From positions 6,262,001-6,326,000 of the forward strand of contig JAGUCH010000001.1 of the NCBI GenBank assembly GCA_019096065.1: a stretch of DNA of 64,000 bases, given 5' to 3'. The position numbers were made by a program, and so were the translations under genes. This stretch comes from Paracyclopina nana (taxonomy: Eukaryota; Arthropoda; Copepoda; Cyclopoida; Cyclopettidae). The notes under the pieces are model-generated. The model did not search any database. It was given only the letters and a program-made list of their open reading frames with translations, and was not told where the DNA came from. This document shows positions 38,304 to 53,166 of the stretch, piece after piece; the stretch's first letter is position 1; each line of letters begins with the position of its first letter.

Positions 38304-40142
38304 CCTTATAGGGGTACGCGATGATCTGAAAGAGATCAAAAAGTCAAACGCTACAAAAAAGCATCATATTCCTCGATCGTTTTATTTTGCCATAAACTTT
38401 GGCCAACGTCCGTCATTGCCTGTCATAAATACCCTTATCCTCTATTGGTTCAGCAATGTTGTTGCAATTTGAGGCAATAAAGCCAAGTCGATGGAACCCT
38501 CGCCGAAGAATACTAATGATTCTGTTCGGAGCAGAGAATTAAAAGCTTGTTGCAAAGGTTGCGTGAGTCTGGTCCGAGAGTTTGCGTTGCATTAGCCATC
38601 TCCTGAGACATAGATTTAGTTAGTATCTCGGCGCTACGTACAGGCCTAGGTGTGCGTTAACAGAGATTTTGTGTATATTTCAACAGTCATCGTTGTTTGC
38701 ATGTATATTTTCTTCACTCAGTTGACAAGGATTGTTGATTTTCTCATAATATTGTAATATTTTTGTAGCATTCGTTATTTTTAGTAAGCATCATCCTCAC
38801 AAGCTGAAATATCTGTATGCTGCATTCTTGAACAATATTGTAGTGGTATTAAAAATCTTTGATGTAGAAGTCGTACATTTAATTTGCCCGAATTTTGAGT
38901 CAAACAAAGGGTTGTTTTCGTCTAGCACCGCGCAAACAGTTGAATATTGTTAGCCAATCATTTAGAAGTTGTTGGTGCCTTTTTTCTGTTCTTCGTGCAG
39001 CTAACGTGTTACATGCATATTTCTCGTTAGAATTGTGTGAGAGTAGTAAACTTTCAGATAGGATAGGTGTCTAATTGAAAGCATCGATGCTCGGTTATTT
39101 ATCTTTGTCAATTGCCATTTCGATAACGTAGAAAGCAGGTCAAAAGTGTTACATATTTTTGGTTGTTTTTGAAAAATCATTTTTTCGTTCGGCGTGCAAA
39201 AACAAGGAGTAGTGATGTGTTGGTAAATTGAATTGGAGCTAGATGATAAAATGCCTTCTTGCTTGCTTTCTTAATATGCTATAAGTTGTAATAGTACTTT
39301 GAGGAGGATGTAGGCATGCAAATATCATCGTAGTCACAGACCGCGCGTGTGTAGTATAATTGTTTTTGGGAGGGTTTGCAGCTGACCAAAAGTCATAAGC
39401 TTTTCCACTGAGCCGTTCATTATGCTATGAGATTCCCCAGTCATCACTGAGCTCGGTTGGAAAGTCTTGCTTTTTTGGACAAAAGTTGCTTGCCTGGATT
39501 AGAGTAACATTTAGAAACCTTTGTGAGCATTAGGCAGTTTTTTAATATATCAGCACAATGGCCATGTGTGTGTGTGTGTGTGTGTGTGTTTCGAAAAAAC
39601 CTGAATGACGATACGAAACAATTAGACGCTGAAATCAATGGTTGTGGCGAAAAAAGTACTATGATGGGCATTTGTCAAACATGATGATGATATTACAAAT
39701 CACAGATTATCACATGTTCTTTAAGAGTGTTGCTTTTAATTCGAGCAGATCTTGCCAAGTTGCCGTCAGCACTCGTAATCAGCGTCCGCTAGAGCTTTGG
39801 TTTTATGTACACTGTTTTAGGTCCTTGGTTTAGATACATAATAGCAAAGATCGTTGACAAGCACCTCAGAGGAGAAAAAACAACGCAATTCTTTTAGCAT
39901 GAGTTACATAGCAGTAGATGATAGTATATCAAATTGGAAAAACAGTGAGCAGCATATTTTGCTTTTTAAAGAGAGACAGTTGCAGCAGCAGAGAGAAGTG
40001 GGGCACCCCCAGGCAATATGTTTACTTAATGCTCTAACAATATGCTTCTTGAATTCTCGTAAGTATGCATGCACAGAAAGAATTAATTTTTCTCGTCGTT
40101 GCAGCCTCGCTTGTTGGAATTGAGCCGTGCATCTATCCGTCT
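38304..40142. other. Downstream flank / likely 3' UTR side of the nicotinic receptor gene
   Basis: No coding sequence recognised. Read on the minus strand, candidate poly(A) signals are ATTAAA near 39736 and 39541 and AATAAA near 38385. None can be chosen from sequence alone. It contains a TG microsatellite. Confidence 0.35.
39565..39590. repeat. (TG)n microsatellite
   Basis: About 12-13 uninterrupted TG repeats lie downstream of the receptor stop codon, read from the minus strand. They may fall within its 3' UTR. Confidence 0.95.
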
Positions 40143-40727
40143 CTACGTGACAATGATGTGCGGGGCCGAGACGAGGACCGCGATTGTCGCGATGATGGTG
40201 AACGCGGTGAAGGTCAGCAAGCAGACGCGATCGAGGACCATGGCCGCGAACTTCCAGTCGTTCTCGATGGCCGCCGTGTCCTCGTCGTCGCGAATCTTGT
40301 CCGTGATCACGCGCAGCTCTTTCAGAATGAGGCTGAGCTCCCGGAAGGCGCCCGGGGGGAAGCTGCCGCTCTCCTCCCGGTCTCCGGAGGCGGAACTGTT
40401 CATACCCGGAAGCGAGGGCAGCCCGCCGGTGGACGAGGGCACCCTGGCGAACGAGTTGTTCACGTTGTTCGGGCCGCTCGAGTTGTTTCCCATGCCTGGG
40501 GGGTGGGTGTGCGAGGGGTGGTGCGGATGGATGTGCGGCAGGGTGGACGAGGGCCGGAAGTCGTCGTCCATGTCGAGCACGTTGGCCAGCAGGCTTTTCG
40601 AGGAGCGCTCCTTCAGATCAAGCTCCTTCATCTTGTTCTGCATCATGATGGTTTTACGGGTGATTTTCTCGCCCGGTCGGCCCATCCGGAGCGCCCAGGG
40701 GATCCATTGTAGGAAGACACAACGTAC
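40143..40727 (-). CDS. nAChRalpha6-like: nAChR exon 10: intracellular loop and M4
   Basis: 585 nt from acceptor ggcggcag to the TAG stop at 40143-40145. It encodes [20 protein letters not shown], the conserved [19 protein letters not shown], a variable His/Pro/Ser/Gly-rich loop ([12 protein letters not shown]), the pre-M4 amphipathic helix and M4 ([19 protein letters not shown]). It is one uninterrupted exon and is much richer in G and C than its surroundings, which creates long antisense open frames. Confidence 0.95.
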   Translation of the reverse strand, partial: VRCVFLQWIPWALRMGRPGEKITRKTIMMQNKMKELDLKERSSKSLLANVLDMDDDFRPSSTLPHIHPHHPSHTHPPGMGNNSSGPNNVNNSFARVPSSTGGLPSLPGMNSSASGDREESGSFPPGAFRELSLILKELRVITDKIRDDEDTAAIENDWKFAAMVLDRVCLLTFTAFTIIATIAVLVSAPHIIVT

Positions 40728-43700
40728 CTGCCGCCAAAGCACAGTTTACTTCTCGTTTCAAGAGCGAAGCCGCGAGAGCATGTGGAGCAGCCAGCCATCG
40801 AGAAAAGTGCATGATCAATTATGGAAGGCCATTTTTTGGCGGTGCAGTGCAGTGGCGGCTTCCCCGCAACAACATACAGCTCAAGGCCAGATACACTTCT
40901 TGTGTATCTCTAGGCCGCAAGTGCTGCTGCTCCACATAGTCTGGAAGCATGCAAGATTCATTACCCAATTCGGCATCTCGTGAGTGTCAGCCAATCTGTG
41001 ATGGTAGTTGAGAATCATAATGGTTGTCACGACTGATGATGCCACCATAAACATAATGCAGTTGAAATACGTTCCTAGGGAAAGGTAAGTCATTTAGTAA
41101 GCTTACATTTGGCCATCTGCCTTCTTGTGGTACAGCATGGTAAAAAATGACTCTGGCCGCTCTCGAGCCAACATTTGTAGCGTATAGGCACAATGATGCC
41201 CCTGATTGTTATCATATTGCGAGCAACCAATGTCATTTTTATGTCAGCATCCATCGCCGGAGCGGTCTCATTCTTTTACAACTACCAGAGTGCCATTGAA
41301 CCGCGCCAAGCCATTGATATGGAACGGCTCCTGATGAATGCTGATGATGCCATAAGGAAATTATGATTTATCGTAGTAGACTTGAGGAAAAAGCTATCTA
41401 TGAAGAAAAGGGCATGCATTTCGACAAAAAATTAGAAAGGCAAAAGGGGATTTTGCTTAAATGTAGCAAAAGTCACATAGAACATTAATTTAGTCAGCTT
41501 CAAAGGAATGGACTTCCTTTTGGCATTTCTTGGCTTTTCAGTTTAAAGTAGATTAGGCAGAGAAATTTAGGATTGGAATTTAAGCAGACTACAACCATTT
41601 GAACCTTGTTGCAGATTTTGATCGATTTTTTATGTCTTCACCTGTTAGGCGCACAACTTGATGGGCTGTGCTTTTGATTTAGTCTCGATAATTATCGTTC
41701 CTGTTGTAACTGTGAGTACTTTTTTGGCTTGGTTTAGGTTTGGCTTTTATATTCTCATCGCTGAGATAATTTTTAGTGAGCAGCATGGCTTCAGATTTGG
41801 GGTTACAAGGTCAAAGCTGAGTCTGATTTGACCACAAGGTTGAAAGCAGAGAAACTTGTATTGATTAGACTGAGTTTATTCTGTAAGTATATGCTTGACA
41901 GTGTTACAACCCCTTTAGGTTTTGTAGGTATATGATTTTTTTGAGTAATTTGTAGATTTTTTTTGGGGAAGCGGATGATGGATGTGTGTCGTTTGTTTAA
42001 GGTGTTTTAGCATATTTAGTGATCTGCTAAAAGGGGCTTTATGGGCTGAAACAAAATGTATAGTTGTAGTGTCTAATTATTTTAGGTAGTTTTTAGTGTT
42101 TTTTTCTGGTACGTGATTGGCACATGTCCGTTTTTACTGTTTTTAGTGCTTGTCTCGTGTTTTAAGTTTTTTAAAATTGATATCAGTATATTTAAATTGA
42201 AAAAGAAAGATAGAGATAGAAAGAGCATGTTGTTAGTTTATGCAGAGTAAAGTATTTTTCATTATTATACATATATCTTTCGGTCTCTGAATGCTGAACA
42301 AATGGCACAAAAATAGTCACGGCATGCAACTTTATTGGCTGGCTGGCTTAAAAAATATCCAACTTTAAAAGTTAGCCTATCTGAAGAGAAAGAGCTTTTG
42401 AGAATGTTGTGTTAGATCAGCATGCGAGTCTATTACGAAAAAAACCAAAATAATGCAACTGCATGGTAGTAGTAGCTTTCCTTTTTGCGATGCAGCAGTA
42501 CACTGGCATCACATATGACCATGATATCAAATGAATAACGTTTATATACTTTGCAGTTCATCACACAGAGGGAGGAAGGATATATAGACATTCTTCAAAA
42601 CGACTAAAAACAAAAAGTTTTGAAGAAAACGCCATCTATAATCGCGTCGTCAGATCATTCCGCTAAATGGCATGCAAGAGAAAGCATTACTTCTAGGATT
42701 ATACGTAAATAGATTTGCTTTGAATTGACAATATTACAGGGATTGATTGATAGTATGTCAGCATGTATTTTTCTGAGGGCCTTGCTTTTTACTTTTTTCA
42801 CTGAAACACACTTGAGCATTTTCAACATCAGGTATCTCACATTTTTGCAGCGGCGATGTATCAAAAAAAAGAAATTTAAAAAACAAGGAGAACACTGAGA
42901 GATGTTGGAAATATATCTGGGTTACTGTTCTACCATCCAGGGTAGTATTTTTGTATATAGAGAGTAGTGTGGTAGTAAGCTCTTTTTTTTATGTTAACAC
43001 AATCCCTTTAGGTGGTGAAGTTTAAACAGCAGGTTTAATTGTTCTTGCTTTGCATTACATTACAGTAAATAAACAAAAAGCAGCAGAATGAGGCATAACC
43101 AAATATATATGCTGACCTATCAAGGGGGTTGCATCACTGACTGGAAGCATTTCTCCTACTATTGTTGCAAAGATTGTTATGGATAGCATGATTGCAACAC
43201 CTGGAAGGAAAATAAGTGTTCGCATTTTTTGATATGCTCTGATAACAAATCTTAGAACGATCTATCTTCGTGTTCTTTTCTCTTCCCCTGATCTATGTAA
43301 TGTGAAGTCGTCAACAAGGTTCAACTGCTTTCAATTGGTAGTAATTTATAAGAGTAGTAATTTTGTAATAGTACTCTATTACCATGCACAAAGTGGAAAA
43401 ATAAAAGTAAAATTTGGGCTGTGCTGAAAGTAGTAGTAGTTTTATGTTGTCACATGTTTCTAGCATCATGCTAAGTATTACAGTAATATAGTAGTAATGA
43501 TGATAGCAGTAAGATAGTAATAGTATTGTAGATCTATCTTCAATAGTGAATAAATATAATTCAGATGTGAGGACCCAAGCACCACCAGCTAGAGACTGGC
43601 TCCAACTGTTGGTGATGGAAGCCCACGCATGAATAAGATATATCTAATGTCACACCAGTTGTTTACAAGAGAAAGTAGTAGTATGTGGAGGAGGAAGTCC

Positions 43701-46700
43701 TAGTATTTTAAGCTGACAAGAAGGACTAGATACTTTGGAGGTAGACATAATACACCTCTAACCTATGAGCGGAGTTGCATCCGAAACTGGGAGCATTTCA
43801 CCCACAATTGTAGCAAAGATTGTGATAGATAACATAATCGTTACACCTGAAAAACAAGCCCTTCAATCAATATCAAAACAGAAAACCACACACTGGCATT
43901 AACAATTAGTGTAAATGTAGGAGCAGCAACTGACTTAACTGTATATTGTACATGCAGCTCACACCAAGAAAGTTGGCAAAATGCAACGTGGTGGTTTAGC
44001 TACACAGTTTTAGATTTCAGCGGTTGTTTTAAATCAATGATTGTTAGCATCATAGTAGTAGTCGTAATAGGTCTTAGCAGTACTTGCAAGGTGAGCCATT
44101 TTGTACCAGTTCTCCTTAGTTTTGAAGGTTCTTTGGTTAAGCTGTTAAGTTTTCTTAGCAATTTAGTGTCAGAGACTACTGACTGGTTAAAATCGAAAAA
44201 GAGGAAAGCACAGTATATATGGTATGAAAAAAATGGCAACAACACCATTCCCAGCTGAGATCCAAGCGAAATGAGTGCTAACCTAGGATTGGTACAGCAT
44301 CGCTGACCTTAGGCAACATCTCCGTTACCATAATGCTAAAAACTGTTAGTGATAATAACACTGTTACTCCTGAAATGAAAAGCAAGTATTGTTGTATTCA
44401 GTGGTGTTAATTAGAAAGCAGGTGGTGTAGTAGTACGTCTTGGGACTGAAGCAGAGGGCGGTTAACATGGTCATATAATATAGTAAATAGTAGAAAGAAT
44501 TGTTTTTAGCATCATAAACCTAGCAACCAACCAAATTATCCTAGGAAGGAGCTTTTGCCGAAAATTAAAAAGCAATATTCAAGCCGCTGAGACATCAATT
44601 CAAGCAAGTTGTGTGACGCAGGGGATCTGTTTTGTACAGCCTGTCCAGGTGCCTTTTCCATCGGCTAAGATGGAAAGTTGGCTGGACACACTGCTAAATC
44701 TTACAGTATTGTACTACAACGTACGTCCTTCTACTTTTTGCAGATATTTCTCATGTTGTCTGGTGTCTTGTGAAAGGTAGCGTAGTTTATAGAGAGTATT
44801 GTGAAATGATGATAATGATGAAAGATTTCTATATAAGAGGGGGATTTCTTACACCCATTTATTTGATTTGCTTTTATGCTCGATCGCAGTTCATTAGATG
44901 TCGATCACATTGATAATGATGGAAGTAAAAGGTTGCTTAACATACATGATAGTTGATTTCTGGACTTCCTAAGTTATTTTTACCTAGTAAAGGAACTGCA
45001 TCACTTGTGGCTGGCATAGTATCAGCCAGAACTTGTGAAAATACAGTTAGTGACAGCAGAATTGTTACACCTGAAATTGTAGCAGTAATCACATGAAAGC
45101 TATATGTGACCCAGTTGATTCTACAAGACAATTTGTAGTTTCTGTGTGACAATCGTATGTTGTTTTTACTCAAATGGTTGCAGTTACTGCGCATAGTAGC
45201 ACTTCTCCTCAAGTGAAATTTACCTAGCAGAGGGTTGTCAGAAGATACTGGCATTAATGTTGAAACCATGTTTAAAAATACAGTCAAGCTTAGAAGAATT
45301 GTCACACCTGCAAAATGTTTGCAACTTCTAGGGTTAGTTCACACTGATAATTGAGAAATTGTTGAAGTATCTGTGTCTCCTTTTTTAGTTGTATCAGTAA
45401 GTAGTAGTAGTAATCTGTGACAAGAATAAGAAACTACAGCCATGGAAAACAAACGTTCAACACATAAGTATAACTAAAGAGCAAAGGCACATTCCAAAGT
45501 GGTGGTTGCACCATTCAGCAGAAATATTATTGTATTTTGTATGAAGAGGTTTGAGAGATATATGTAATGTTTTTTTCTACTACATGTTGATTTGGGTATA
45601 TATAGAAGTAGTAAGTAGCAGTCAAGAGGAGCAAGTAAGTAGATCAGTTGATGTGTCTTCTCACATAATAATCATAGTTGAAGCCTAATTGTATTCACAG
45701 CAACCCATTGCCAACTAAATTATCTGCAATCGCTCAAATGGTTGTTAAATCTGCCTTCAATACAATCTAAGTTTCTCAATAGTAGCAGCAGCGTTTGTTT
45801 TTACCTAACAAAGGAATTTGGAGTGATGTCACAGGCATAGCGTCACTGATACTTTGCTGAAAAACTGTCAATGAAAGGAGGACAGTTACACCTGAAAGAT
45901 CAAAATTCAAACGTAGGACTCAAATAAGTATGACAGGCTTGTAGAATATAACTGTATGGTAATTATTATATCTGTTGCGCGTCATCACTTTCAAAAAGCT
46001 TGTTAGACAAATCATGCTAATGTATTATGATAGCTATAAATGATGATAGCAGTATGGTAGTAGTACATAGTAGATGATGGACAGGCAAAAATAACCATTT
46101 TTCTACCAACATACAAACAGTTGTAGTAATATAATGGTTTCAGAGCTGAGTATACAGATATTTTTTGTAGGTAGTAAAGTAGGTGTAGTGTTTTTCTGTT
46201 GTAAAAAGTCTAAAGATTCCTTTTTTAAAATTGCTAAGTGTCACGAAAGATGCTAGCTCCACACTTCTGACTAAATGCAGTTATGTGTGGTCTCCGGCCT
46301 TAGGTAAAAAGAAGTAAAAATACTTAGGTTGGCCTTCAAAAGTTTTGTCAGAACAAAGAGCTCAAAGTGAGTGAGAAGTCTTTGGGGAAAAGCCAACAGA
46401 GAAAGATCAGTATTCAAATAATTATTGTTTGTATTGACAATCTAGGGTGTAGATTTCTTCACTTGTTCTGTTATGTTAAATGATGGCACATTAGAGGGGG
46501 AGATAATGGTTGTAGAAAAATAAGAAGAGGCATGCAACATGCTTGTCATGTCTTCTCCTCGGTTTAGCAACATTGTTCAACAACCCTCTCCTGTACAAAA
46601 GCCAGGAGACTCTGAGGACTTTCAAAGTTACCAGTGATTCCTTGGCATGTGTTATTATTAATTTGATAGATTCCTCATTCACCAAAGGAACAACCACTCT

Positions 46701-49700
46701 TAAGTTCATCATCACATTGAAAGCAATAAAAGTGAGCGTTAGAACGTAGTAGTGGAAATTCGATCTTGACAAATCGACATGCAAAAATGCTGGATATAAG
46801 GCTGATGTTTCTTATTCACTTGTCAACCAGATTAAGTCTAATAGTGTATTATGAAAGAGTTACAGATATGAAGTTGTAGCATGCATTAGTAATAGTAGTA
46901 TAACGAATGAAACTTATATAACACCATGCCAATGAAAAAGAGGATTTTTGAACCATTGCATTTATCTGATAATTTGAATAGAATAATATAATGATATGGA
47001 ACCATGCATGCATGATGATATTAGGTTATTTTAAATTTCTAGTCACTATTTTTTCGAATAGCTCCTTCATTCAATGCTTTTAACAATCATTTGATTAATA
47101 TTGGCGGTAACCTACTCGAAAAGTTCTCTACTAGTTTTCCCGCTAAGATTTTTTCAACCCTGAATTTAATGAATAATTTCTCGGTTCTTCGTCAGTTTTC
47201 AAATGTTAGCAACTGTTTTCGTAAAAGGGATTTTGCATGTAAATAAAAAATGGAAGTAGTGCTTACCAAGTGAAAGTTTTTCTCCAGAGTCTGGAGGAAG
47301 TGTAAAACCAAGAACAGCCATCGATGCAATGAGAACACACGGAACGATGAGGTTGAAGAAGTAATACAGTGTTCTCCTTCGAATTTTGATGACAAAAGTG
47401 ACATCAAGGTAAGGTTCTGGACAGCAATCATAGTAAACCTCATTTCTCTTTCCAGGAACACCTAAACGTAAATAATTGAATTAGTCAAAATTGAGGTCCT
47501 CGCTAAGACAGAGGTTATCAACAATTATTAGCAATAGAACAAAGGAGAGGAAAATGGAAACTAAAAAGTGTAAGTTCAGTAGGATGAAATTACAACAATG
47601 TTTTTATTTTATGATTGGGTACTATTAATAGATCAAAAACTTCACGTTAAGTAGCAGCTTGGATTGTAACATTAGCGGTTTAAAAGCACTACTAAGCACT
47701 TAAAGGGTTTTGTATTGCATGCAGGCCCTAACAAAGAAGTTTTGCTCGATTACCTCAATTTCATTGGGTACACAAATCTTAAAAGTTGTAAGTAGGAGCT
47801 GCGAATAATGGTTTGAATTGGTACCATGCCAATAGAGCTTTTTTTGCATTTTTATTTATGATGCAGTTTGGTCCACATTTATTCGTTTGAAGTCCCACTC
47901 TTTGCCCTTTTAAGGGGACATAAAATGTTTGACTTATTTAGAGAAAGGGCCTTAAGAATGAATATTTCTTAATTATTAGGCCGTTCTCATATTGCCGGAA
48001 AAAGCTAAGCTAAGGTAAAATTAGCTAAGCTAAGGTAAAAATTATGCAACGAAAACCGGTTATTTCGCTCAACATTCACAAAAAGCAGCTATTTTGCTTG
48101 AAATGTTGAGCGTTTGCTTAGCTATTTTTACCTTAGCTTAGCTATTTTCACCTTAGCTTAGCTTTTTCCGGCAATATGAGAACGGCCTATTGATTTGCTG
48201 CTGTACTCAGAGCTTTCTCTTTGTAAATTAAGTTAAGTTTCTTTTAGGCCCTGACAATGTTATCACCAATATAACGCGCGATATTATACTGACATTTGCA
48301 AATATCAGGCAATCATTTTTTTGAATTTTGTCTTTGGAATCGGTCTTGAAGTACCAAAAGACATCATACAGCAAAATCGAAATTCTCAGTTTCTCAGTAT
48401 TTCTCTACGATATTTTGCCAAAATATCAGCAGTAATATGCAGGTGCACAGGCCCTTAATTGTTTTCATCCACTTATACAGACTTTACAAATCTCACTAGA
48501 ATGAATCACGAATGAAAAGTTGAATAGTGATGATCTTTCATTTTGCATACATATTTTGGCATTTTGCTTATCACCAGAATGTGAATGTGTTTTTGTCACT
48601 AATTTGTTGGTCAAAAGAGCTAGTAGGCATTGGAACGGTCTTTGAATAAAGGGTTTCTCTAATAAAGGGCGTTTTGTAAGTTACTTATATTAGTGAGTGT
48701 CGTTCATAGTAGTTTTGAAAATTATGGGTTGTACCGTTTAGTTTGAAGGGCATGTTGAAGTGTTTAAGAATATGTTAACAGACATTTTATTGCAAATCAA
48801 CTATCTAGGGCTAATGTAGCAGATTATTGCATTTTTACCACAATTGGGAGACAGAAAAAGAAGAATAGTTCTAGGCCATGAAGGAGTAGCAAAGTTAGTC
48901 ACAACTAATATGTGGATTTGGACTTAACCAGAGTTAGTCAATGACCAAAACTGGCTAGAATGCAAGCCACTAATAGTGAAGAGACGTGATAGTATATGAC
49001 AGAGTGGGTTACAAGAACATACGTTTATCAATGGGAGTTAGAAGCTTTATCGGGAATAGCGCTTAGTTAGCTAAATATTTGTAATCATTGGTAAGTGGTT
49101 TAACACTGATGATCAGCTATTGATTTAGACATGAAAGATAGCAGCAATAGTGCTGTACGTATATTCCAAATCAGCACATTATTACCTAGTAGATGCCACT
49201 CTCCATTGAGGACAAAAGTACTCATGTCTCCCTCGCCCTTGTCGTTATTCATGTTTAAATCCAACTGGAAGGCCAACTTCTGTTATCATATTGTTTTCTA
49301 TTTGCAACCAGCCAGACTCTCTTACAGAACAATAAAAATTGCAATTATATGCTTGGGCGGCTGGCCAATCCTCTCATAGGAGTTGGTCAGCAGCAAATAT
49401 TCATAGTTCATCATCCCCTTCTGGTTGTGATTGTAGAGGTAAGTTAAGCAGGAAAAAGAGTACATTCAAAGCAAAAATGAGAAAGAAACCTTGTGACATT
49501 TCACTATCATCTCTTTGGCCAACTGTAGCATTAGCCAATTCTTTTTGAGATGGTGCATGTTGGTAACAGGTACAAACTCAAACAACATTTACTATATAGC
49601 TATATATACTTATGTATTTGTGCTATGTGCTATTCTGATGAATGAATAGTCAGATGCACAAGGTTAATTAGCTTCTCTGAAGTACTCATCCTTCAAACAA

Positions 49701-52174
49701 ACAGCAATGACAGTAGTATATGAGTTGTATATAAATATATTTATGTATTGTAATGAAATATTTTCAAAAAGGTATTATAGTTAGGAAGTATTCAATCAAA
49801 CAAACATGTTGTAATTTGTTTTGATGCAAAAACCAACGAAAATAATCTTTGAAAAAAGCATCAAATTGCTTCATCAAATTCAGTGAGCATACCTAACAAA
49901 GCCCATTCTCCATTAAGGACAAATGTTGAAATGTCTCCTTCTTCGCCATTTAATTTCAAGTCCAACTAGAAGTATGGATTGTATTAGCAAGCTAAGTACT
50001 CTGTTAAAATCGCTGAAAAAGACCTTTGATTTTGGTACACCAAGGAATTAAGTGAGCTTTGGCTAGTTGCAAAAGTTGTACGATAAGAGATTCAGAGAAC
50101 TTACCTTGAACCCATTGTAGGTCCAACTGCCAAACTTCATCTCACAGTCTTGGTCATCGAATGGAAACCAAGTTATATCTATTTTACAAGTCGATTTGAA
50201 GATTCCTGGAGGGATGTATGTACACCTCCCCTCATGAGTGACCACCACATTTGTTGGATATGTGCCATCGAAGGCTTCATCAGCACTAAAGAGTTTTGTG
50301 AATGGCAGGTGCGTCAATTGTTATCAACTATATTAATACACTCATTGAGTTTGAGAAGGAACCTACCTGTTGTACATAAGCACATCTGGTTTCCAGAGCT
50401 TCGATGGAGGCATTCTTATATCTTCAATGTTGCCATACTCTGATTTATTCCACTTCATGTTGATGTCGTTCCATTCCTAAGGCATTAAGATTATAGCTTA
50501 GCAACGTTTAGAGAGAGGCTAGATAATCTTATTAGCATGCTCAGGAAACTTTGACTCACCTCACGCTTTGGGGCTAACATGAAATGTGAAACAAAATCGA
50601 GCTGCTGTTGCATCACACTTATGTTTTATGTTAGCTCCAAGCTTGCATCCCTATCTTATAAAAAGGAGTTTTTTTAAAAAAGGCATGCAGCAGCATTTGT
50701 TTACAAAAACGTGGCTGCGATCCAAAATTCATCACGAATGCAAAACATAAAATGAAACTAAGAAAATCGTTTCTGTGTATGTTAACTCTTTTTTAGTGTA
50801 GTTTTGATGGAAGGTAGTAAGTATTAAAGTTATGATAATGCTACAACTGTAACCCCTAGGTTAACAACAGCAAGTAATAAGTACCATTTTAGTAAATTAC
50901 GCCTTGTGCTGACTGAATATATAACTATCACCTTTATGAGGTCTTTTTAAGTAGTATGTACATTAAAATGAATTCTGTGCTCCTAAGGGGTGATTACATT
51001 TGCCCTTAGGTCTGCTGTAGTACATGTTTAATTATGTGCAACCAAAACAATGTATGAAGAAGACTCAATGAAGATGATATGACAATTTCCTTTGATTGTG
51101 TTGGTCATTCATACACATTGATTGATTTTTTGGCGGATACTTACCAAATTTAGCCAAACATTTGTGGTAAGAAGTTGATTTTTTTCATCCTAGTGTAAAC
51201 ACAGGAAAATTCATGTTTGGCATATCTACTGAAACGGCATAACACTACAGTATTTTTCTTCCCCATGTTTACCCCTCCCTGGAATCCTCCCTCTCTATAT
51301 CATGCAGACCCGGGTGACATCAAAACATGTAATTTTGTTTATATTCAAACTGTTATGCTTTGATGCTGAAATACAGCATCATATCTTTTCATCCCCCTTC
51401 CTCAACTAAAAGATGGTTTAATTTGAAATACATAATTTCTAATCGTTGATCGTTTTGTTGTTTTCATTTGATTTTTAAGCAGCATCAGCAACACTGATTA
51501 TATGTTAAGGTTCATTTTAGTAGTTGTGTTTGGTGTGTACGATGCACAAAACAGTGTTTCATTAAGTTGATCCACAACTTTCTTTATGAGGAGGGATTGG
51601 AAGAAGAAAAGAATCTCACACTGACCAAGAAGCTTGTCAACACCATGCAAAGTTCATATCCAATGTAGTTGCAAACTTAGAATAAGTAGCTGTCATCCAC
51701 CCTAGAGAAGATATCAGGTGTTGCGGTGTCACCTCATCAATTTGAAGAACTCAGAGTCATATGTGACACTTTCTTTGACTTTCTCTTAAGTGAGATGACA
51801 GCGTCCTCATCCAATTTGCCAGCGCAAAGCAGCCCACAGCACTTACCAAATTTAACCAAATATTTGTAGTAAGGATTTGATTCTTTTCATCCTAAATAAA
51901 GGAATGCAACATGGTGCTTAACTTTAAAGTAGAAATTTGCTATTCATGTGGAACCCCCATTTATAAGAAATCAAATCGTGTGTTCCCTAACTTTATTTTT
52001 TTTAGTTAATGTTAGGTCACATAAATTTACTTACCACATCAATTATTTGTTGCAAAGTCAGTCCGAAGAGGAGAGTTAGTGGCTCTGACTCGTTGTAAAC
52101 TGGCCTTTCCAATGTATTGTAGTGTTCGAGCAAATCATTGAGCAGCCTCCTTTCATGTGGTCCGCCATAAACAT
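40143..52174 (-). CDS. nAChRalpha6-like: Nicotinic acetylcholine receptor alpha subunit, alpha6/alpha7 type, with alternative exons 3, 6 and 8
   Basis: This gene encodes a Cys-loop ligand-gated cation channel subunit of neuronal and synaptic membranes, the class targeted by spinosyns in insects. Joined in transcript order with one copy of each alternative exon, exons 2-10 code for 508 aa; the signal-peptide exon 1 is not found. Visible hallmarks: [20 protein letters not shown] at the N-terminus; loop D WLNLEWND; loop [11 protein letters not shown]; loop B GSWTYNG; a 13-residue Cys loop [15 protein letters not shown]; vicinal cysteines YYDCCPEPY, which mark an alpha subunit; M1, M2, M3; the intracellular [20 protein letters not shown] segment; and M4 ending SAPHIIVT. 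Exon order is 2, 3 (two copies), 4, 5, 6 (two copies), 7, 8 (six copies), 9, 10. Exon borders follow the insect alpha6 gene. Phases agree at every junction. The expansion of exon 8 and the doubling of exon 6 are the unusual parts. Confidence 0.95.
40965..41074 (-). CDS. nAChRalpha6-like: nAChR exon 9: M3
   Basis: 110 nt between ttccctag and a gtaatg donor. It completes the Gly shared with each exon 8 cassette and encodes [20 protein letters not shown], then [16 protein letters not shown]. The split Gly appears to align with the thrips alpha6 residue (G275) changed in spinosad resistance; here it is wild type whichever cassette is used. Confidence 0.95.
43117..43200 (-). CDS. nAChRalpha6-like: nAChR M2 cassette 8f
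   Basis: 84 nt between ccttccag and a gtcagc donor, phase 1 at both ends. It encodes [19 protein letters not shown], then VSDATPLIG. 6', a pore-facing position, is Ala where every other cassette has Thr. The gtcagc donor is the weakest in the array. Confidence 0.92.
43763..43846 (-). CDS. nAChRalpha6-like: nAChR M2 cassette 8e
   Basis: 84 nt between tttttcag and a gttaga donor, phase 1 at both ends. It encodes [19 protein letters not shown], then VSDATPLIG, one residue shorter in the loop than 8a, 8c and 8d. It has Ile at 11' and 13' and Glu at 20'. It differs from 8f by a single residue. Confidence 0.93.
44283..44369 (-). CDS. nAChRalpha6-like: nAChR M2 cassette 8d
   Basis: 87 nt between tcatttcag and a gttagc donor, phase 1 at both ends. 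It encodes [19 protein letters not shown], then [10 protein letters not shown]. 20' is Glu, and the loop carries an extra basic residue (Lys). Confidence 0.93.
44984..45070 (-). CDS. nAChRalpha6-like: nAChR M2 cassette 8c
   Basis: 87 nt between caatttcag and a gtaaaa donor, phase 1 at both ends. It encodes [19 protein letters not shown], then [10 protein letters not shown]. The M2-M3 loop [10 protein letters not shown] matches the insect alpha6 form. 16' is Gln and 20' is Asp. It lies only 153 bp downstream of 8b, the tightest spacing in the array. Confidence 0.93.
45224..45307 (-). CDS. nAChRalpha6-like: nAChR M2 cassette 8b
   Basis: 84 nt between attttgcag and a gtaaat donor, phase 1 at both ends. 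It encodes [19 protein letters not shown], then VSSDNPLLG. The helix core is the closest here to insect exon 8 (LTVFLNMV). The 20' ring residue is neutral Thr instead of an acid. Confidence 0.93.
45805..45891 (-). CDS. nAChRalpha6-like: nAChR M2 cassette 8a
   Basis: 87 nt between atctttcag and a gtaaaa donor, phase 1 at both ends. It encodes [20 protein letters not shown], then [10 protein letters not shown]. The pore positions 6' Thr, 9' Leu and 13' Val are conserved, 16' is Gln and 20' is Asp. The M2-M3 loop is the most divergent of the set (TSLQ in place of SDAV). Confidence 0.92.
46640..46752 (-). pseudogene. Possible decayed seventh M2 cassette
   Basis: In the gap between exon 7 and the first intact cassette, a minus-strand frame reads [13 protein letters not shown], loosely like the M2 core ([12 protein letters not shown]), and is followed by a proline a few residues on. 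There is no AG acceptor at the expected place and no SD-PLLG ending. It is either a relic or chance hydrophobic sequence. Confidence 0.15.
47267..47461 (-). CDS. nAChRalpha6-like: nAChR exon 7: loop C and M1
   Basis: 195 nt between acgtttag and a gtaagc donor, phase 1 at both ends. It encodes [17 protein letters not shown] with the vicinal cysteines, then M1 ([20 protein letters not shown]), and ends SGEKLSLG at the cytoplasmic start of M2 (-1' Glu, 0' Lys, 2' Ser). All exon 8 cassettes splice to this point. Confidence 0.95.
47978..48188. repeat. Palindromic MITE, family A (copy 2), 211 bp, within nAChR intron 6
   Basis: It has the same termini (AGGCCGTTCTCATATTGCCG) and the same 211-bp length as the copy at 28638-28848, but the asymmetric centre is in the opposite orientation. 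It is flanked by ATT on both sides (47975-47977 and 48189-48191), a 3-bp target duplication. It sits between exon 7 and the second exon 6 copy. Confidence 0.9.
49186..49264 (-). CDS. nAChRalpha6-like: nAChR alternative exon 6, copy 2 (loop F variant, two residues longer)
   Basis: A 79-nt exon between ggccttccag and a gtaata donor, with the same phases as copy 1. It encodes [18 protein letters not shown] followed by LNGEWHLLG. The loop F insert NNDKGEGD is longer and of different charge from copy 1, while the flanking STFVLNGEW is identical. That pattern indicates a functional alternative rather than a decayed copy. Confidence 0.92.
49893..49965 (-). CDS. nAChRalpha6-like: nAChR alternative exon 6, copy 1 (loop F variant)
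   Basis: A 73-nt exon between tacttctag and a gtatgc donor, entering in phase 0 and leaving in phase 1. It encodes [16 protein letters not shown] followed by LNGEWALLG. It spans the beta8-beta9 loop F region that borders the agonist pocket. Its alternative lies 628 bp downstream. Confidence 0.92.
50105..50285 (-). CDS. nAChRalpha6-like: nAChR exon 5: Cys loop and loop B
   Basis: 181 nt between actctttag and a gtaagt donor. It encodes [20 protein letters not shown] through the complete Cys loop [15 protein letters not shown] and loop [10 protein letters not shown]. It ends in phase 0, the phase at which either exon 6 copy begins. Confidence 0.95.
50367..50476 (-). CDS. nAChRalpha6-like: nAChR exon 4
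   Basis: 110 nt between tgccttag and a gtaggt donor. It encodes [20 protein letters not shown] and onward to WKPDVLMYN plus two bases of Ser. It contains loop A of the agonist site. Confidence 0.95.
51145..51189 (-). CDS. nAChRalpha6-like: nAChR alternative exon 3, copy 2 (3' copy)
   Basis: A 45-nt exon encodes [15 protein letters not shown], bounded by ttacactag and gtaagt, phase 0 at both ends. It lies 657 bp downstream of copy 1. Either copy, both or neither would keep the reading frame, so exclusivity is not enforced by frame. Confidence 0.93.
51847..51891 (-). CDS. nAChRalpha6-like: nAChR alternative exon 3, copy 1 (5' copy)
   Basis: A 45-nt exon encodes [15 protein letters not shown], bounded by tttatttag and gtaagt, phase 0 at both ends. 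It carries the loop D tryptophan. It differs from copy 2 by two conservative residues (Ile for Leu, Ile for Val). Insect alpha6 genes have the same exon 3a/3b pair. Confidence 0.93.
52035..52174 (-). CDS. nAChRalpha6-like: nAChR exon 2: N-terminal extracellular segment
   Basis: 140 nt between acceptor cttatttag and a gtaagt donor. It starts in phase 1 (two bases of a split codon), encodes [16 protein letters not shown] through [11 protein letters not shown], and ends in phase 0. Because it starts mid-codon, an upstream exon with the initiator Met and signal peptide must exist. Confidence 0.95.
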
Positions 52175-52228
52175 CTAAATAAGAAATATAGAATTGCTTT
52201 ATAGGAAGGTTTTTTCTTCTCCTTGATA

Positions 52229-52351
52229 GGCTCAATATCTTCGGTGTCTTTGATCGTTGCATGGCTGCGGTTGCTATCGGTTATTATTTACTGACATTGC
52301 CACCTCGTCAGTAAATAAGAACCGACAACAACCACAACCATGCCACGATCG
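52229..52351. repeat. Truncated family B MITE, fused to family A
   Basis: It begins GGCTCAATATCTTCGGTGTC and shares CTTTGATCGTTGCATGG, TTATTTACTGAC and the complementary arm with the copy at 25802. The right arm stops at CACGATCG, where family A sequence starts directly. It lies 54 bp upstream of nAChR exon 2 in transcript sense. Confidence 0.75.
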
Positions 52352-52478
52352 TTATGTAACGAAAACCAGTTATTTCGCTCAACATTCACAAAAAGCAGCT
52401 ACTTTGCTTGAAATGTTGAGCGTTTGCTTTGCTATTTTTACCTTAGCTTAGCTTTTTCCGGCAATATGAGAACGGCCT
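52352..52478. repeat. Truncated family A MITE, right part of a chimera
   Basis: From TTATGTAACGAAAACCAG to the intact right terminus GCAATATGAGAACGGCCT it matches the right two thirds of the copy at 47978-48188. The left terminus is missing and replaced by family B sequence. Confidence 0.8.
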
Positions 52479-52862
52479 AAATGAGTCATAACCAAAATAG
52501 CTCTTCTAATAAAGCTTAACAAGTAATTGATCCAGTCATCATTTGTACAACATTTATGAAAATACCCTCGCACTGTTGCTTTCACTGCTTTGCTTTTCTA
52601 TGGCTCAGAAGTGGTTGTTGACCACACCCAGCAGAAGATCTGAGAACCATGAAAGCACATATTATAGTAAGAGTGGGTTGGTTGAGTTTCCTTTCCTTTT
52701 TGGCGCAGTCTGTATGTCTTCAATGGCCTTTGTGGGCTCTAGCATAAAATACCTGCATCATTTTCTCCCAAAATGTGGGCTGCTTTCTTTTTAGCAAGCT
52801 GTTAATGAAAATTAAGCTTTCCTACTTATGGTGTTTAAATTTGGTTTGCCTCTCGTGTCTTA

Positions 52863-52982
52863 AGCCCGGTTCCAACAAGGAAAATCAGCATAGTCAGGAG
52901 ACATAACTTGACTTATTAGCCCAGTCAGGTTACAGCTAGCACGCTACTATGCTATGCTGATATCCCGTGTTGGAACCAGGCT
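52863..52982. repeat. Palindromic MITE, family D (copy 1)
   Basis: The ends read AGCCCGGTTCCAACAAGGAA and TGTTGGAACCAGGCT, with TTA on both sides (52860-52862 and 52983-52985) as target duplication. It is 120 bp and non-coding. Confidence 0.85.
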
Positions 52983-52997
52983 TTAAGCTAGGCTACG

Positions 52998-53166
52998 GGG
53001 CGTTCTCATATCGCATTTTAGTTAAACCAAAACTGATACTGGTTAGACCAAACTGACTTTTGTCCGGACAAAAGTCAGCATTCTTGTAGCGTTTAGTTTA
53101 ACCAGAATCAGCGTGGTTTAACTAAAATCAGTTATGGTTAGACCAAACTGCGATATGAGAACGCCC
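52998..53166. repeat. Palindromic MITE, family C (copy 2)
   Basis: 169 bp. The ends read GGGCGTTCTCATATCGCATT and its complement. The arms have TTAGTTAAACCAAAACTG and TTTTGTCCGGACAAAAG (a perfect internal palindrome). It is related to 17033-17181 and lies only 15 bp after a family D element. Confidence 0.82.

Follow-up and report, generated by a model that had tools for sequence, protein, structure and literature searches.

The M2 helix and the M2-M3 linker of a nicotinic receptor subunit set what the channel conducts and how binding opens it. Spinosyn insecticides act on the insect alpha6 subunit (PMC5111602, PMC6393475), which is produced from the mutually exclusive exons 3a/3b and 8a/8b/8c, the latter being used in the order 8b > 8a > 8c (PMC1919356, PMC7017565). 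Three versions of exon 8 were described for alpha6 of Drosophila, Tribolium and Apis (PMC1919356, PMC2064938). All six combinations of exon 3 and exon 8 were recovered from Tribolium by reverse-transcription polymerase chain reaction (PMC2064938), and only 8b was found in the complementary DNA (cDNA) of Bombyx (PMC1919356, PMC7017565). A conserved glutamate, of unstated position, is replaced in Tribolium 8c (PMC2064938). The loss of exon 3 in Tuta absoluta removes 45 bp, equal to 15 residues (PMC5111602), and the Drosophila subunits alpha5, alpha6 and alpha7 together have a single alpha6 clade as their counterpart in Arachnida (PMC9219234). Extra exons were also reported for RDL/GluCl of Tribolium, in which three versions of exon 3 alter the extracellular domain near loop D (PMC2064938), and for tick RDL, in which an exon was triplicated (PMC9219234). 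Here we describe a nicotinic receptor gene with six alternative M2 exons (cassettes 8-1 to 8-6, numbered in transcript order), found in a stretch of 64,000 nucleotides from the copepod Paracyclopina nana (contig JAGUCH010000001.1, positions 6,262,001 to 6,326,000), hereafter the window. The contig of the window is 17.8 Mb long, and the genome searches covered the ten contigs making up the 92 Mb genome. Nine of these contigs measure 6.3-17.8 Mb, with about 0.3 Mb left for the tenth, a pattern that suggests n = 9; COX1 was absent from the assembly.

Based on the exon borders, the reading frames and a profile scan, it was concluded that a single nicotinic receptor gene on the minus strand holds six intact alternative M2 exons, as proposed in the first-pass annotation. 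The six segments of 84 or 87 nt were recovered exactly over the span of 43117-45891, between exon 7 (ending ...SGEKLSLG) and exon 9 (M3); each is bordered by an AG acceptor and a GT donor and has phase 1 on either side. The frame was open in all six, and each cassette encodes M2 from position 5' together with the M2-M3 linker. There was no N within 40001-53000. In the genome search at E values up to 0.001, a Pfam model detected three of the six cassettes, and a query consisting of cassette 8-3 and exon 9 detected the other five at E values up to 1. A profile was then built from nine M2 exons, the six described here and three of a paralogue; as it included the six, it tested their number and any missing copies rather than their discovery. 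Over the whole window it gave exactly six matches of 45.9-58.0 bits, the next best reaching 8.4 bits and the best of 10 Markov-simulated windows 10.2 bits. Hence, no seventh or decayed cassette was found above the chance level by this profile in the window. An open frame at 46491-46811, which looked M2-like by eye, was rejected, since it obtained no score against the profile. We consider it likely that the six exons form a cassette array that would vary the upper pore and the gating linker of an alpha5/6/7-type subunit, perhaps under the control of UACUAC elements and of an RNA docking site in the introns.

The gene was modelled from exon 2 to exon 10, without the signal-peptide exon. With a single version each of exons 3 and 8 included, the spliced reading frame ran without interruption from exon 2 and reached a normal C-terminus. 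The Cys-loop (C-x13-C) was present in exon 5, and both the vicinal cysteines of loop C (YYDCC, matching YxCC) and the GEK cation filter preceding M2 (SGEKLSL) in exon 7. Among the solved chains, alpha-7 accounted for the 13 top matches to the spliced protein (E values from 1.2e-155 to 1.8e-143), followed by alpha-4 (6.1e-106), as judged from the best 60 of 69 matches. It was concluded that the predicted product is a cation-selective nicotinic alpha subunit of the alpha7 or arthropod alpha5-6-7 type, with a presumed resemblance to Drosophila alpha5-6-7. The gene also contains two versions of exon 3, which the first-pass annotation had overlooked; together with the six versions of exon 8 they allow 12 possible isoforms.

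The predicted gene fits the insect alpha6 kind in every feature examined here and exceeds it in the number of exon 8 versions. In both, exons 3 and 8 are alternative, exon 8 encodes M2 and exon 3 is 45 nt long, and in both one version lacks a conserved glutamate (8c in Tribolium) or acidic residue (8-2 here, which has Thr at 20'). The copepod gene differs in having six versions of exon 8 instead of three, two of them nearly identical in protein, in a linker whose length varies by one residue between versions, and in being accompanied in its genome by a second gene that also has both sets of cassettes, with three exon 8s. The extra exons of RDL/GluCl are similar in that a set of alternative exons has grown in a Cys-loop channel gene of one lineage; however, here it is the pore and the gating linker that vary, with six versions. 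No report of more than three exon 8 versions was found in the openly licensed literature searched, which was covered mostly at the level of listings.

The differences between the cassettes were concentrated at positions 15' to 22' and in the linker, when M2 positions were numbered as in the table in PMC5447003. In that source, the charge at 20' was given as the main determinant of calcium permeability in a published model of vertebrate nicotinic receptors (PMC5447003). Residues 5', 9', 10', 12', 14', 23', 26' and 30' were identical in all six cassettes. The residue at 20' was Asp, Thr, Asp, Glu, Glu and Glu in 8-1 to 8-6, respectively. The linker was one residue shorter in 8-2, 8-5 and 8-6, its Asp was missing from 8-1, and 8-4 carried Lys at 24'. 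The glutamate at -1' and the first part of M2 lie in exon 7 and are constant across the versions. Since this glutamate is constant and the charge at 20' varies, the choice of the cassette probably affects calcium entry, conductance and gating, rather than the sign of the ion. The first-pass annotation had spoken of six different pores. Five of them are clearly distinct, and the sixth is a single-residue variant, since 8-5 and 8-6 differ only at 6', a pore-lining position. The residue changes there from Thr (ACG, 43839-43841) in 8-5 to Ala (GCA, 43193-43195) in 8-6, on the minus strand. If the ACG of 8-5 underwent adenosine-to-inosine editing to GCG, Ala would also result, as in 8-6.

The cassettes are old and have been kept under long purifying selection as a set; recent duplication and decay are excluded. 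In all 15 cassette pairs pN was lower than pS (0.07-0.48 against 0.56-0.98, the latter near saturation), as estimated by the Nei-Gojobori method on 26-28 codons, so that single values are rough. The nucleotide identity was 75% between 8-5 and 8-6 and 44-60% in the other 14 pairs. Cassettes 8-5 and 8-6 share 26 of 27 residues, and 15 of those 26 codons differ (pS 0.74). It was this combination of near-saturated synonymous sites with retained residues that ruled out recent duplication, decay and collapsed alleles, the last of which had been named in the first-pass annotation as a possible refutation. When the seven array introns were compared, the only match at E values up to 0.01 covered 70 nt at 77% identity. 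The match joins 46011-46075, in the intron before 8-1, to 43465-43533, in the intron before 8-6 (minus strand), and contains UACUAC sites.

A paralogue was found 1.7 Mb away on the same strand of the same contig (C1:7.98-7.99 Mb). It has two versions of exon 3, of 45 nt each, and three of exon 8. In the 40 kb around it, the nine-exon profile matched its three cassettes only (51.8-62.1 bits; the next match had 7.9 bits). Two types of cassette were distinguished by sequence. The MP type comprises 8-1, 8-2, 8-3 and the first and second cassettes of the paralogue, and the LP type, which has a VSD linker, comprises 8-4, 8-5, 8-6 and the third cassette of the paralogue. The support for the LP group was 92.7/78 in the nucleotide tree and 84.5/61 in the protein tree, which is modest, as the trees rest on 28 codons. 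The MP type precedes the LP type in both genes. Because the paralogue has the same order of types, a smaller array appears to predate the split of the two genes; in the simplest history, an array of at least two types would have existed before the gene duplication and then grown to three plus three here. An expansion, which the first-pass annotation had proposed to be lineage-specific, agrees with the six versions, compared with three in alpha6 of Drosophila, Tribolium and Apis and three in the paralogue, but the array is not wholly new, its two-type layout being common to the paralogue. In two other nicotinic genes (loci L004 and L005) M2 and M3 lie in a single open frame. The L004 gene (C1:8272001-8282000, at approximately L004:3190-6370, minus strand) encodes a nicotinic subunit without the vicinal cysteines (EEYYTSQ) and is followed by three tandem copies of the terminal M4 exon (VIEDWKYVAMVLDR..., VIQDWKYIAMVLDR... 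and VIEDWKFIAMVLDR...), each open to its own stop. These copies may perhaps represent alternative M4 ends.

Further, the array introns of both genes were searched for shared words. The 6-mers were ranked without bias, by the lower of two z-scores obtained for the array introns of this gene and of the paralogue, and TACTAC was second in the joint ranking, after TATATA. On the transcript strand, 18 separate UACUAC clusters were counted in the array introns of this gene (5.7 kb) and 6 in those of the paralogue (2.9 kb), where 1.4 and 0.7 were expected, respectively; the antisense counts were 2 and 0. The background was 0.25 per kb and strand, measured in 295 kb from 30 stretches, and its largest counts in windows of equal size were 6 for this gene and 4 for the paralogue. 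Thus, the array introns of this gene and of the paralogue are both strongly enriched in UACUAC, and only on the transcript strand, which is a new finding. The element resembles, yet differs from, the ACUAA element to which SF1 and QKI bind (PMC13004596). The possibility that UACUAC acts as the core of a selector pairing with GUAGUA was rejected, as GUAGUA occurs just twice in the array introns, in two different introns. Since such partners are too few, UACUAC was read as a putative protein-binding element. Three copies were present in the 1.5 kb of the exon 3 introns of this gene.

The Dscam1 clusters hold far more cassettes than six, and their variable part is an immunoglobulin domain, where here it is an ion pore. 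In Dscam1 exon 9 of Coleoptera, which has a downstream dock (PMC8042237), alternative exons likewise stand in tandem and one downstream intron site pairs with selectors between the cassettes; in the copepod gene, in contrast, the pairing is supported for two or three introns only, as judged from the sequence of this genome. A docking system in the last array intron, between 8-6 and exon 9, was considered probable but partial. Local pairing with the last intron, taken as a whole, scored at best 58 for the intron after 8-1, which none of 400 random segments reached (null maximum 48.5), and 37.5 for the intron after 8-2 (12 of 400 as good). In duplex energy at the candidate dock, a site itself picked from the data, random segments were as good in 0 of 150 cases for the intron after 8-1, 0 of 150 after 8-2 and 18 of 150 after 8-5. 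The ungapped score at the candidate dock was reached by none of 250 random segments for any of these three introns. A convergence of three or more introns on a single site, at a summed score no lower than that observed, arose in 2 of 384 simulations drawing random segments of the genome and in 2 of 266 with random docks. The total over six introns, 177, was reached by none of 250 random-segment draws. A second copy of the 121 nt around the dock was not found in the genome at E values up to 10, in a search that skipped very common words. The exact dock word CTRCAACCATTTGA had five sites in the 92 Mb, two of them within the array in opposite orientation.

Two other positions for a dock were rejected. 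For the first array intron, the five-intron total was reached by 5 of 60 shuffles, and the six-intron total was 149 compared with 177 for the last intron. For the paralogue, 23 of 63 real loci reached its total; one of its six intron pairs was equalled by only 3 of 150 random segments and was not counted as support.

A number of results weigh against the array or its proposed control. The array is known here from the genomic sequence only. UACUAC was not found in the 2.5 kb of the exon 3 introns of the paralogue, and therefore it does not mark alternative exons in general. The failure of the paralogue to yield a clear dock belongs here as well. In the gene itself, the local pairing of the intron after 8-5 was at the chance level (score 33, 219 of 400), the intron before 8-1 paired weakly (32 of 400, 51 of 150, P 0.016), and the introns after 8-3 and 8-4 showed no pairing with the candidate dock. 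Hence, the comparison with a Dscam-type array made in the first-pass annotation was upheld in part: the candidate dock fits the introns after 8-1 and 8-2, gives mixed results after 8-5, is weak before 8-1 and has no support after 8-3 and 8-4. Convergence of at least three introns on one site, irrespective of score, occurred in 19 of 384 simulations. In the harsher control, 5 of 62 whole real loci reached the total of 177, two of these being one contig-end repeat locus on both strands. The 14-nt core word CTRCAACCATTTGA with one mismatch allowed occurred 122 times in the genome and its reversed form 33 times, a ratio of about four. The idea that the dock derives from a dispersed repeat was rejected, because the 121 nt matched only themselves at E values up to 10 when very common words were skipped, although the commonness of this word speaks against the rejection.

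It is quite possible that neither the dock-selector pairing nor the excess of UACUAC has a role in splicing, both having arisen as by-products of short repeats or of tandem duplication. Tandem duplication copies motifs in a single orientation and some of the UACUAC sites are short CTA repeats, which, together with the result for whole real loci and the commonness of the dock word, favors such an origin. However, the introns are otherwise nearly unalignable, and motifs retained at saturation suggest constraint. Moreover, UACUAC ranked second among the 6-mers shared by the separate array introns of two genes, with no antisense copy in those of the paralogue, while the dock region had no second copy and two of the five exact CTRCAACCATTTGA sites lay in the array in opposite orientation.

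It is rather unlikely that splicing truly employs just one or a few of the cassettes, with the rest being rarely spliced or cryptic exons. The use of the insect versions is very unequal (8b > 8a > 8c), and 8c was not recovered as cDNA from Bombyx (PMC1919356). None of the six cassette donors was of the GTRAG form (gtaaaa, gtaaat, gtaaaa, gttagc, gttaga and gtcagc for 8-1 to 8-6), and, of the six constitutive exons that have a donor, three (exons 2, 5 and 7) carried gtaag, as did both exon 3s. Such a view is opposed by the purifying selection on all six as a set at a near-saturated synonymous distance, and by the intact state of every cassette, none of which has a stop, a frameshift or a missing splice dinucleotide, when decay would be expected of rarely used exons. 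Equal use of the six cassettes is nevertheless unlikely, as one version can dominate in insects (8b over 8a over 8c).

The cassettes might also not be strictly exclusive, some transcripts carrying two or none and encoding dominant-negative or silent subunits, which we regard as improbable. Because every cassette has the symmetric phase 1-1, the frame would survive the inclusion of two or the skipping of all, and the shortest array intron, of 153 nt, is spliceable by general knowledge, with no steric block to be expected. Both exon 3 versions are included together in Bombyx, mostly in adults, although none of 30 insect cDNAs outside this case had the duplicated exon 3s joined (PMC1919356). A subunit with two or no M2 helices, in turn, should form no pore. 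Finally, an assembly artefact or collapsed alleles, a reading invited by the almost identical peptides of 8-5 and 8-6, has practically no likelihood, being already refuted by the divergence in a region free of gaps, where these two cassettes are only 75% identical in DNA (pS 0.74), the other 14 pairs 44-60%, and the seven array introns share a single 70-nt match of 77% identity at E values up to 0.01.

We therefore return to the cassette array and propose how it may work. The start of M2, together with the unvarying selectivity filter (GEK, -1'), would come from exon 7, the stretch from 5' of M2 to the end of the M2-M3 linker from one of the six exon 8 versions, and M3 from exon 9. Any cassette can join in frame, because its length is a multiple of three and its phase is 1 at both ends, and a working subunit would need exactly one, because two would add a second M2 and none would remove it. 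Each cassette would be used singly, at some place or time. An RNA-binding protein that recognizes the intronic UACUAC elements of the array may set which cassettes are seen. The dock in the last intron would pair in turn with the selectors after 8-1, 8-2 and perhaps 8-5, so that the intervening cassettes would be looped out and exon 9 would be offered a single donor. Cassette choice would alter the pore mouth (15'-22'), the residue at 20' and the length and charge of the linker. A more far-reaching version, which we find unlikely to hold as a whole, is a library of six pores in which the cassette is chosen by RNA dock/selector competition and by a UACUAC-binding splicing factor also serving the paralogue, with 8-5 and 8-6 kept apart since their ancient duplication only to switch Thr/Ala at 6', and 8-6 possibly being a hard-wired editing outcome.

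Table. Features of the nicotinic receptor gene and its cassette array (window coordinates).
Feature	Position	Strand	Remarks
Exon 2, N-terminal extracellular domain, GPHERRLL...QQIIDV	52035..52174	-	
Exon 3, first version	51847..51891	-	45 nt, 15 residues, phase 0
Exon 3, second version	51145..51189	-	45 nt, 15 residues, phase 0
Exon 4	50367..50476	-	
Exon 5	50105..50285	-	Cys-loop C-x13-C
Exon 6	49186..49264	-	
Exon 7	47267..47461	-	YYDCC, M1; ends SGEKLSLG at M2 position 4', phase 1
Array region, exon 7 to exon 9, seven introns	41075..47266	-	18 UACUAC clusters sense, 2 antisense
Cassette 8-1	45805..45891	-	87 nt, 28 residues; AG/GT, phase 1-1
Candidate selector after 8-1	45711..45777	-	Pairing score 58, reached by 0/400 random segments
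Cassette 8-2	45224..45307	-	84 nt, 27 residues; no acidic residue at 20'; AG/GT, phase 1-1
Candidate selector after 8-2	45168..45190	-	Score 37.5, reached by 12/400
Cassette 8-3	44984..45070	-	87 nt, 28 residues; AG/GT, phase 1-1
Cassette 8-4	44283..44369	-	87 nt, 28 residues; AG/GT, phase 1-1
Cassette 8-5	43763..43846	-	84 nt, 27 residues; AG/GT, phase 1-1
Weak candidate selector after 8-5	43312..43335	-	Mixed scores
Cassette 8-6	43117..43200	-	84 nt, 27 residues; unlike 8-5 at 6' only; AG/GT, phase 1-1
Candidate docking site, last array intron (8-6 to exon 9)	41584..41611	-	Extended pairing region 41560-41625
Exon 9	40965..41074	-	M3
Exon 10	40143..40727	-	M3-M4 loop and M4; ends SAPHIIVT, then stop

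In the intron between exons 6 and 7 (window positions of about 47979-48190), a long inverted repeat, near-perfect by eye, was observed that resembles a small element of the MITE (miniature inverted-repeat transposable element) type. In its first 10,000 nt (C1:1-10000) and at its far end, the contig was seen to carry (TTAGG)n with variants at one of the two ends, which fits an arthropod, and an array of CTGGC repeats at the other.

The six versions, natural and tested by selection within one fixed subunit, would serve as a mutant series for structure-function work, in which the pair of 8-5 and 8-6 is a one-residue natural experiment at 6'. With the array, the paralogue and their common intronic element, direct tests of how nicotinic cassettes are chosen become feasible. 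The breadth of isoforms of an alpha6-type subunit bears on pharmacology outside the insects.

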